Positions 61,236 through 63,994 of a stretch of DNA of 64,000 bases are shown here, in pieces (position 1 is the stretch's first letter; each line of letters begins with the position of its first letter). The notes under the pieces were generated by a model, which worked only from the letters and a program-made list of their open reading frames with translations, was not told the origin of the DNA and made no database searches. The position numbers and the translations under genes were made by a program. Source of the DNA: an uncultured Pelagibacteraceae bacterium (lineage in GTDB: Bacteria > Pseudomonadota > Alphaproteobacteria > Pelagibacterales > Pelagibacteraceae); the NCBI GenBank assembly GCA_902588895.1, contig CACIRC010000001.1, forward strand, positions 143,948 through 207,947, in the 5' to 3' direction.

Positions 61236-61895
61236 ATGCACAATACTGTAAAAAAATTATTAGACATTGAAAATAATATTAAAATTTATTTAGAGAAATT
61301 TAATATTAAAAATAATCCAAAAACTATAGCAGTTTCAAAGACATTTAAAATTGAAAAAATTTTACCTCTTATCGAACATGGTCATTTAGATTTTGGGGAG
61401 AATAAAGTTCAAGAAGCAGTCGAAAAATGGACAGAAATTAAAAAATCCCATTCATCAATCAAATTACATATGATTGGTAAATTACAAACCAATAAAGTTA
61501 AATTTGCTGTACAATTATTTGATTATATTCATTCAGTAGATAATGAAAAACTTGCAAGAAAAATTGCACTAGAACAAAGTAAAATAAATAAAAAGGTTAA
61601 AATTTTTTTACAGGTGAATATTGGAGATGAAAATCAAAAATCAGGGATTAATAAAAGTGAGGTGGAGCAACTAGTTTCTGTTTGTAAAGAAGTTGGTTTA
61701 AATGTCGTTGGCTTAATGTGCATCCCCCCTATAAATGTAGATCCAGAGAATTATTTTTCAGAAATGAATAAATTAAAAAAAGACTTAGATCTTGCTGAAT
61801 TAAGTATGGGTATGTCTTCAGATTATCTAAAAGCTGTTAAACATTTATCAACATATATTAGAGTTGGATCTAGTATTTTTGGTCAGAGAACTTAA
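61236..61895 (+). CDS. YggS-family pyridoxal phosphate homeostasis protein
   Basis: IAVSKTFKIEKI, HLDFGENKVQEAVEKW, HMIGKLQTNKVKFAV, LSMGMSSDYLKAV. Confidence 0.96.
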   Translation: MHNTVKKLLDIENNIKIYLEKFNIKNNPKTIAVSKTFKIEKILPLIEHGHLDFGENKVQEAVEKWTEIKKSHSSIKLHMIGKLQTNKVKFAVQLFDYIHSVDNEKLARKIALEQSKINKKVKIFLQVNIGDENQKSGINKSEVEQLVSVCKEVGLNVVGLMCIPPINVDPENYFSEMNKLKKDLDLAELSMGMSSDYLKAVKHLSTYIRVGSSIFGQRT

Positions 61896-62386
61896 AAAAT
61901 CTTTATTGTAGAATTTTTTTTAATTAATTTTAGCATAATTAAAAAATCTTTTTCCTGTAAAGCAACACATCCAGCCGTAGGTTTGTAATCTTTGGTAAGA
62001 TGAATAAAAATACAACTTCCCATACCACTTTTGGGTTTTTTAAAATTATACTTAATTGGAATTAAGAAATCATATTTGTTGTCTTTTCTTTTTAACTTTT
62101 CGTGTTTAATTTTTTTTTCAATTGTAACAAGTTTATTATATTTTTTAGGAAAGCGAATATCATTACACCAACCCATATTTTTTTTAATTTTGATACATTT
62201 TAGTAAAGTTGATGGTTTTTTTTTACGGTCTTTTCTAAAATAAAGATTTTCAATTTTAAACGTCCCTTTGGGTGTTTTTTTATCTCCTTCCTTTTTATTC
62301 TTAGTTAAACCTTTTTTACCAATACAACACCTGAATTTAAATTCATCTATTTGAAGAGTGTGTTTATTTTTTACAAAAATTGTCAT
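61892..62386 (-). CDS. L,D-transpeptidase (YkuD) family protein
   Basis: CCIGKKGLTKNKKEGDKKTPKGTFKIE, CIFIHLTKDYKPTAGCVAL. Confidence 0.9.
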   Translation of the reverse strand: MTIFVKNKHTLQIDEFKFRCCIGKKGLTKNKKEGDKKTPKGTFKIENLYFRKDRKKKPSTLLKCIKIKKNMGWCNDIRFPKKYNKLVTIEKKIKHEKLKRKDNKYDFLIPIKYNFKKPKSGMGSCIFIHLTKDYKPTAGCVALQEKDFLIMLKLIKKNSTIKIF

Positions 62387-62398
62387 ATTCTCTCTTTA

Positions 62399-62962
62399 GT
62401 GACTACACAGAATTTAATTATTTATAAGTTTAATGCTTTATATCATATTCTTGAAGAACTTGGTTTAGATTTAAATATTAAGGTTACCTTTGCAGAAACT
62501 GAAAATTCTTTAAATGAATGTGTAAAAAATTTAAAAAATTACTTAATTATTTCAAATAAAAAATATTCAGATATTAACAATCAATTAGTTTTAGATAATA
62601 CACCTATCAATATTTTTAAACTGGTTGAAAAGATAAATATTGAATTTTTAAAAATACAATTTAGCAGTCAGTCTGAAGTTAAAGTAAGGAATTATATTAT
62701 TGATCTAAATTCCAGACAAATGATAATAAATAATATTAAGCTTAAGTTGACTGAAAAAGAGATTAATACAATAATTTATTTATCAAAATCAAAAAAACCG
62801 GTAAGTATTGATGAATTACAAGAAAAGGTTTGGAGTTATCAATCTGATATAGAGACTCATACTGTTGAAACACATATCTACCGATTGAGAAAAAAAATTT
62901 TATTAACCTTTAAAGATAATGAATTTATAATTAGTGAAAAAAATGGTTATCAAATCAAATAA
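62399..62962 (+). CDS. OmpR-type winged-helix protein with divergent receiver-like N-terminus
   Basis: LTEKEINTIIYLSKSKKPVSIDELQEKVWSYQSDIETHTVETHIYRLRKKI; GTG at 62399 is a better start than 62351, which overlaps the divergent gene. Confidence 0.82.
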   Translation: MTTQNLIIYKFNALYHILEELGLDLNIKVTFAETENSLNECVKNLKNYLIISNKKYSDINNQLVLDNTPINIFKLVEKINIEFLKIQFSSQSEVKVRNYIIDLNSRQMIINNIKLKLTEKEINTIIYLSKSKKPVSIDELQEKVWSYQSDIETHTVETHIYRLRKKILLTFKDNEFIISEKNGYQIK

Positions 62963-63062
62963 GAAAAACCCAATGGCTAAAGATTTATTTACTAAAAAGT
63001 ATAAATCAAAAATAGTAAAGCCTAAAAAAGGCAAAGGAAGTTTTAAAAGAAAGAAAAGTTAA
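62943..63062 (+). CDS. arfA: ArfA-like alternative ribosome-rescue factor (39 aa)
   Basis: Manual translation MVIKSNKKNPMAKDLFTKKYKSKIVKPKKGKGSFKRKKS; aligns without gaps to the E. coli ArfA core as I recall it ([29 protein letters not shown]). Confidence 0.82.
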   Translation: MVIKSNKKNPMAKDLFTKKYKSKIVKPKKGKGSFKRKKS

Positions 63063-63994
63063 ATTTTAAGTCTCGCTCCGATTTGTTGAATTACCTTTGA
63101 TGACATTTCAGTACCTTTCTCAAGACACTGTTTTGTAGATAGTTTGTTGATGTATCCATGTAAAAATCCTGCAGCAAACAGATCACCTGCACCTGTTAGG
63201 TCAACAATTTTGAGATTTTTTTGGACATTACTTTCAAAAACTTCGTTGCTATTAATTGCAACTGCACCTTTTTCACCTCTAGTTATAATAATTAACTTAT
63301 TAAGTTGTTTTGAAAAATTTATAACCTCATCAAAATTTTTTGCTTCAATTAAAGAGGTGATTTCTTGTTCATTAGCAAAAGTTATATCAAGTTTATTTTT
63401 AACTAAGTTTAAAAAATGAGGTTTATGTCTATCTACACAAAATAGATCAGAAAGTGACATAGCAACTTTATTTGCGTTATTTATAGCTTTATCAAATGCT
63501 TTCTTGGGCTCTCCTTCATCCCATAAGTAGCCTTCTAAAAATATTAATTCACTATTTTTAATTGCATTAGAGCTAACATCATTTTCGTTAATTTTTCCTG
63601 CTGTTCCTAAGAAAGTACACATTGTTCTTTCAGAGTCTGGTGTTACTAATATTAAACATGTTCCAGTTGGCAATTCTTCTTTCTTTTTAAAATAAAAATA
63701 TTCTACATTTTCTTTTTTTAAACCTATTTCATATTCACTACCAAATTCATCATCAGAAACTTTACCAACAAAACCAACTTTATTCCCTAGTTGAGATAAT
63801 CCAACGATTGAGTTTGCTACCGAGCCACCAGAAACTGTTTTTTCAATTTTAAGATTTGCTAATAAACTTTTGAATTCTTTTTCATTGAAAAATAATTTCA
63901 TTGTGCTTTTGGTTAGATTGTTTTTTTCAATGAAATCGTCATCTACTTTGCAGATGACATCAACTATTGCATTTCCTATTCCTAAAATTTTCAT
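63059..63994 (-). CDS. PfkB-family carbohydrate/adenosine kinase
   Basis: GIGNAIVDVICKVDDDFI, VSGGSVANSIVGLSQLG, VDLTGAGDLFAAGFLHG. Confidence 0.95.
   Translation of the reverse strand: MKILGIGNAIVDVICKVDDDFIEKNNLTKSTMKLFFNEKEFKSLLANLKIEKTVSGGSVANSIVGLSQLGNKVGFVGKVSDDEFGSEYEIGLKKENVEYFYFKKKEELPTGTCLILVTPDSERTMCTFLGTAGKINENDVSSNAIKNSELIFLEGYLWDEGEPKKAFDKAINNANKVAMSLSDLFCVDRHKPHFLNLVKNKLDITFANEQEITSLIEAKNFDEVINFSKQLNKLIIITRGEKGAVAINSNEVFESNVQKNLKIVDLTGAGDLFAAGFLHGYINKLSTKQCLEKGTEMSSKVIQQIGARLKI

Follow-up and report, generated by a model that had tools for sequence, protein, structure and literature searches.

The window analysed here, a stretch of 64,000 nucleotides from an uncultured Pelagibacteraceae bacterium, carries near its 3' end a 39-residue open reading frame (ORF) that is unannotated in this SAR11 genome. 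The ORF lies between a winged-helix gene and a convergent kinase gene, and the features of the locus are as follows.

62399 to 62962, plus strand: upstream winged-helix gene (Trans_reg_C, PF00486), recurring beside most orthologues of the ORF.
62943 to 63062, plus strand: arfA-like ORF of 39 residues, MVIKSNKKNPMAKDLFTKKYKSKIVKPKKGKGSFKRKKS, with a TAA stop; marked by a PF03889 match at E = 3.6e-5, orthologues and purifying selection.
62967 to 63023, plus strand: N-terminal, putative decoding-centre half, residues 9-27, aligned with E. coli ArfA 14-32 by profile-profile comparison.
63024 to 63059, plus strand: C-terminal basic tail, KKGKGSFKRKKS, with invariant residues; the Pfam match covers residues 20-38.
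63059 to 63994, minus strand: convergent pfkB-family kinase gene, recurring at most orthologous loci.

The initial annotation had given the 39-residue sequence, its ATG at 62943, its TAA at 63060-63062 on the plus strand and its overlap with the winged-helix gene, and all of these proved exact. The 3' end of the gene for the 187-residue winged-helix product overlaps the arfA-like start by 20 nt. The stop codons of the ORF and of the kinase gene overlap each other, so that there is no space for an intergenic terminator. A divergent L,D-transpeptidase gene (YkuD, PF03734; window 61892-62386, minus strand) adjoins the winged-helix gene, and an ORF like it in size, strand and position was found in most congener loci examined. 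The nearest public matches are Pelagibacteraceae single-cell genomes, with 97% protein identity.

An ORF that is short, A-rich and overlaps both neighbours might be a spurious, low-complexity, lysine-rich artefact of AT-rich DNA, in particular as it shows no clear Shine-Dalgarno sequence and its promoter-like sites are no commoner than in shuffles. The conservation of the frame speaks against this. Orthologues with the frame conserved were present in 37 of 48 congeners, and at most loci they fill the same slot between the winged-helix gene and the convergent pfkB-type kinase gene; persistence downstream of the winged-helix gene in relatives, which the initial annotation had proposed to examine along with purifying selection, was thus mostly syntenic. 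Variation among the orthologues falls mainly at third codon positions. For the 29 codons overlapping neither neighbour, the pooled pN was 0.15 and the pooled pS 0.62, a ratio of 0.24, and pN was below pS in 434 of 435 orthologue pairs when the same overlap-free codons were compared. A frame kept in hundreds of genomes, with this ratio, third-position divergence and an invariant motif, rules out a spurious ORF and leaves the artefact a negligible probability. The arfA-like ORF is a real gene.

A profile search covering 297 SAR11-order genomes with a completeness of 85% or more located the arfA-like ORF in 232; among the 152 near-complete genomes it was present in 117. Almost all of the matches fall within the window's own family, with two weak matches in the sister family among the matches listed. 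Three congeners (G287, G377 and G002; L246-L248), of which G287 and G377 are complete genomes, lack the ORF at an intact winged-helix-kinase junction, which indicates that it is gained or lost as a unit. In a further genome, G033 (L250), a different gene fills the slot between the winged-helix and pfkB genes. The sister genus offers another arrangement: in G178 and G455 (L251 and L036) the arfA ORF lies just past a 508-codon open frame that begins inside the 3' end of the same winged-helix gene, so part of the neighbourhood persists across genera.

The initial annotation had read the ORF as a ribosome-rescue factor of the ArfA type, and the Pfam, synteny and selection results are in keeping with that assignment. 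The window protein matched a single Pfam family, PF03889 (ArfA), with an E value of 3.6e-5 over residues 20-38 and a score of 23.6 bits, just under the gathering cut-off of 25.5 bits. Close relatives exceeded it: 32.8 bits were obtained for an orthologue (g5) in a different genus of the family, and 30.5 bits for a homologue from a marine phage. The same family matched all 27 orthologues scanned, the best at 2.6e-8. The window protein had no match in NCBIfam, and searches of PHROGs and NCBIfam returned no informative name. When a SAR11 profile was run against 177,635 PDB sequences with E values up to 10, six matches were obtained, all of them E. coli ArfA from ribosome complexes (E from 3e-6 to 1e-5) and all ungapped over 33 residues, which reproduces against a PDB sequence the gapless alignment to the E. 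coli ArfA core that the initial annotation had proposed. Against a profile of gamma- and betaproteobacterial ArfA the window protein scored 19.6 bits, a value reached by 0 of 19,800 composition-preserving shuffles, and the ArfA alignment is therefore beyond chance. The SAR11 protein corresponds approximately to residues 9-44 of E. coli ArfA. Its membership in the ArfA family is an assignment made from sequence alone.

The basic KKGKGS(Y/F)xRK tail is conserved in the SAR11 proteins. K28, K29, G30, G32, S33 and R36 are invariant among the 27 orthologues and K31 is nearly so, in agreement with the conservation claimed at the outset, and the ORF does end at this tail without any extension, as had also been stated. 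The N-terminal half retains N14, a hydrophobic residue at 16, L20, an aromatic residue at 25, R/K26, R/K28 and V/I29 (E. coli numbering), with A18, L19, L24 and E30 replaced. As a single sequence this half showed no significant similarity to ArfA (p = 0.33 for the window protein). Profiles of it did: in an ungapped comparison of columns 1-20 with the tail left out, where all 20 columns stood in register and the shuffled means were about 6, the SAR11 half scored 14.3 against gamma/beta ArfA (1 of 300 column-shuffles as high) and the viral half 20.3 (0 of 300), and sets including viral copies were matched by 0 of 150 and 0 of 300 column-shuffles. A similarity confined to the tail can be set aside, since the profiles score without it even though single N-terminal halves do not.

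These comparisons bear on the idea that the SAR11 protein arose by independent invention, as a lysine-rich, release-factor-dependent rescue peptide that converged on the KGKGS tail in the way thought for BrfA and ArfT. BrfA of Bacillus and ArfT of Francisella are likewise small basic peptides that depend on a release factor and back up tmRNA, yet no sequence relation to ArfA has been reported for them (PMC6881298), so unrelated peptides do perform this job; the tail, too, carries much of the score. The in-register match of the N-terminal half alone argues against convergence, both for SAR11 alone and for the sets with viral copies, and so does a group of ArfA proteins (L243-L245, LRTPMFK...KPKKGKGSY) that bridges the SAR11 and gamma/beta groups. 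One of these, NALKAQLRTPMFKMQQQKPKKGKGSYSRK (L243), whose beta-type label we infer from published distributions, also connects to the phage type NPIAKDLRTPKYKPRVVKPKKGKGSF. Independent invention is already disfavoured and, in our judgement, highly improbable.

Compared with ArfA (YhdL, PF03889) of E. coli and other gamma- and betaproteobacteria, the SAR11 proteins share the ungapped 33 residues with KKGKGS(Y/F)xRK, N14, the hydrophobic position 20, the aromatic position 25, the basic positions 26 and 28 and V/I29, and both types occur in genomes with tmRNA and RF2. They are shorter (34-42 residues against about 55-72), mostly lack an equivalent of E. coli residues 1-8, have neither the C-terminal extension nor a conserved hairpin within the ORF, and differ by A18 to K, L19 to D/E, L24 to K and E30 to V/I. 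A further family, DUF7230 (PF23876), closely resembles these proteins in its N-terminal half (RNxxAKxLRxPxYRxRVV), which aligns in register, but it lacks GKGS and continues directly with KKxYxRKxKH. Small proteins of the DUF7230 or near-DUF7230 type were seen in other Alphaproteobacteria (L038, L041, L045, L047, L048, L050, L052 and L054). A DUF7230-type set scored 16.1 against gamma/beta ArfA in profile-profile comparison (shuffle maximum 14.9); as the set was chosen by similarity to the SAR11 profile, its likeness to SAR11 is biased and its link to ArfA less so.

The initial annotation had also noted a GCCT-AAAAA-AGGC hairpin inside the ORF. The window does contain it, yet only 2 of 30 orthologues share it, and shuffled sequences fold as well as this region does (z = -0.17). 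A regulatory hairpin was rejected on these grounds, and the feature most likely arises incidentally from the codons for PKKGK. These two values and the missing C-terminal extension leave control through a non-stop arfA mRNA of the E. coli type unsupported; in E. coli that control combines the hairpin with a degradable extension and repression by tmRNA. At many loci arfA and pfkB meet or overlap at their 3' ends, and one may speculate that a transcript ending inside the ORF would yield a non-stop message by another route.

What rescue systems would such a protein accompany? The source genome contains an alphaproteobacterial tmRNA (alpha-tmRNA), RF1 and RF2. SmpB was not found in this genome, which is 79.6% complete, and was present in 20 of 20 near-complete relatives. 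ArfB (YaeJ) is the usual backup in Alphaproteobacteria, recorded in 2,022 of 2,376 genomes of a survey that recorded ArfA in 0 of 2,376 (PMC11633108); it is a backup like the SAR11 protein would be, but has its own GGQ hydrolase domain. The 39-residue protein contains no GGQ RF-1 domain. A search for that domain disclosed no ArfB-like protein in 81 SAR11-order genomes: each had at most two matching proteins, all of the RF1/RF2 type, except G007, whose three matches are presumably fragments at contig edges. ArfB was dropped as a candidate for the SAR11 backup on this result, which, with the tmRNA, answers the question raised initially of whether ssrA and arfB occur in the genome. With no ArfB in the 81 genomes, and with alpha-tmRNA, RF2 and, in relatives, SmpB, no alternative rescue factor other than the minimal ArfA was detected, and SAR11 probably relies on this gene as its chief alternative to trans-translation.

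According to reviews, ArfA is confined to some of the beta- and gammaproteobacteria (PMC8012679). Among the Alphaproteobacteria sampled, PF03889 matched in only three genomes, namely that of the window, one relative and G760; the SAR11 profile brought up further ArfA-like proteins in scattered Alphaproteobacteria, such as MSSSRKSKRRTNPIARALRTPTFRQRKIRPKKGRGSYSR (L039). Our literature search found no report of an arfA gene in a SAR11 host, and in the one paper retrieved that names SAR11 and ArfA together the gene concerned is a phage gene.

In E. coli, the vacant mRNA tunnel receives the C-terminus of ArfA, the A site holds its middle (residues 21-30), and a patch of L19, L24 and F25 contacts W319, V198 and F217 of RF2 (PMC5378476). 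The A18T substitution abolishes activation of RF2 (PMC8012679). In the SAR11 copies, position 18 is K in 30 of 30, in contrast with A or S in beta/gamma ArfA, and these copies mostly have D/E at position 19, with K/R at position 24 and V/I at position 30. Thus the hydrophobic patch and the small residue at 18 are not kept and F25 has become the aromatic Y, a comparison that describes the E. coli interface and is no measure of homology. The RF2 of the source genome retains W319 and F217, with a conservative change of V198 to I. Because positions 18, 19, 24 and 30 are replaced, the release-factor interface must differ from that of E. coli.

This divergence lends some weight to another reading, in which an ArfA homologue binds the empty mRNA channel without recruiting RF2 and has a different job, for example the protection or modulation of idle ribosomes, or that of a phage-derived translation effector. 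A18, L19 and L24 have given way to charged residues in almost every SAR11 copy and in the majority of viral ones. The protein is also very short, it is frequent among phage genomes, and its absence from an intact junction in some complete congeners makes it dispensable. Set against these points are the retention of N14, L20, the aromatic residue at 25 and the full spacing to KKGKGS, the conserved W319 and F217 of RF2, and the fact that retention in organisms without ArfB fits a role in rescue. We regard a role apart from RF2 as unlikely.

The simplest reading is instead that RF2 is recruited much as by ArfA. The KKGKGSFKRKK tail would enter the empty mRNA channel of the 30S subunit, and the short N-terminal half would then occupy the decoding centre and recruit a class-I release factor, most likely RF2. 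The recruited factor would hydrolyse the peptidyl-tRNA and so free the ribosome, as a backup to tmRNA-SmpB in SAR11, where ArfB was undetected. The length of the protein counts against this scheme: it ends at about E. coli residue 44, whereas truncation at N47, the shortest reported to be functional, is tolerated in E. coli and truncation after M40 is not (PMC5378476). We infer ribosome binding, RF2 dependence and the backup role together, and of these steps RF2 dependence, with the recruitment it implies, is the least secure. Overall we consider it probable that the ORF codes for a pared-down ArfA protein, which would back up tmRNA-SmpB in SAR11, where ArfB seems to be missing.

Close homologues are encoded by at least 157 viral contigs in a scan of IMG/VR. 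The contigs checked carry phage hallmarks, including a T4-type clamp loader, RegA and DNA polymerase, a portal and major head protein, a terminase small subunit and an endolysin. Phage ArfA has already been reported. The authors who described Pelagibacter phage HTVC027P identified its gp30 as ArfA and report strong expression at both early and late stages of infection (PMC12753301), and g10 of Citromicrobium phage RXM has been named ArfA (PMC8953757). The record of HTVC027P lists gp30, which lies upstream of the terminase small subunit, as a hypothetical protein, and its region is 65% identical to the marine phage type. With the 39-residue protein as query, tblastn against phages gave no match at E = 10, low-complexity masking being the probable reason; a longer phage homologue as query found HTVC027P and others. 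The phage proteins (HTVC027P gp30, RXM g10) have the same core as SAR11, NPxAK(D/E)(L/V)xTxKY...VKPKKGKGS. They differ in often bearing an N-terminal extension (MPGKWDGKSR...), in mostly keeping P23 and in adjoining terminase, T4-type replication or lysis genes. The extension, MPGKWDGKSR(I/V)SNxxYRxxFDRIF, is fused to the ArfA core in many marine phage copies (L060-L062, L073, L091, L093-L096, other viral contigs and HTVC027P gp30). On two viral contigs, L059 (73.9 kb) and L127 (43 kb), the arfA-like ORF lies within a T4-type replication cluster, with the clamp loader gene immediately upstream of it and RegA on its downstream side.

A wider proposal, possible though doubtful as a whole, is that SAR11 and the phages of marine Alphaproteobacteria share an ArfA subtype with a rewired interface (K18, D/E19, K24, V/I30). 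It would be the only alternative rescue factor of SAR11, the copies in lytic phages would keep host ribosomes turning over, and DUF7230 would be a sister family without GKGS that acts on ribosomes. The putative SAR11 ArfA is a minimal variant of a known family in a class reported to lack it. SAR11 are among the most abundant bacteria of the ocean (PMC12753301), and an arfA-type gene is widespread in them despite the 0 of 2,376 found in the survey of Alphaproteobacteria (PMC11633108); surveys by annotated genes or nucleotide profiles overlook ORFs this tiny. A natural minimal ArfA of 34-39 residues is material for testing what the fold needs, and G287, G377, G002 and G033 are natural absence cases for asking what the gene does. 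It also links a host gene to one that numerous marine phages carry and whose transcription accompanies pelagiphage infection (PMC12753301).
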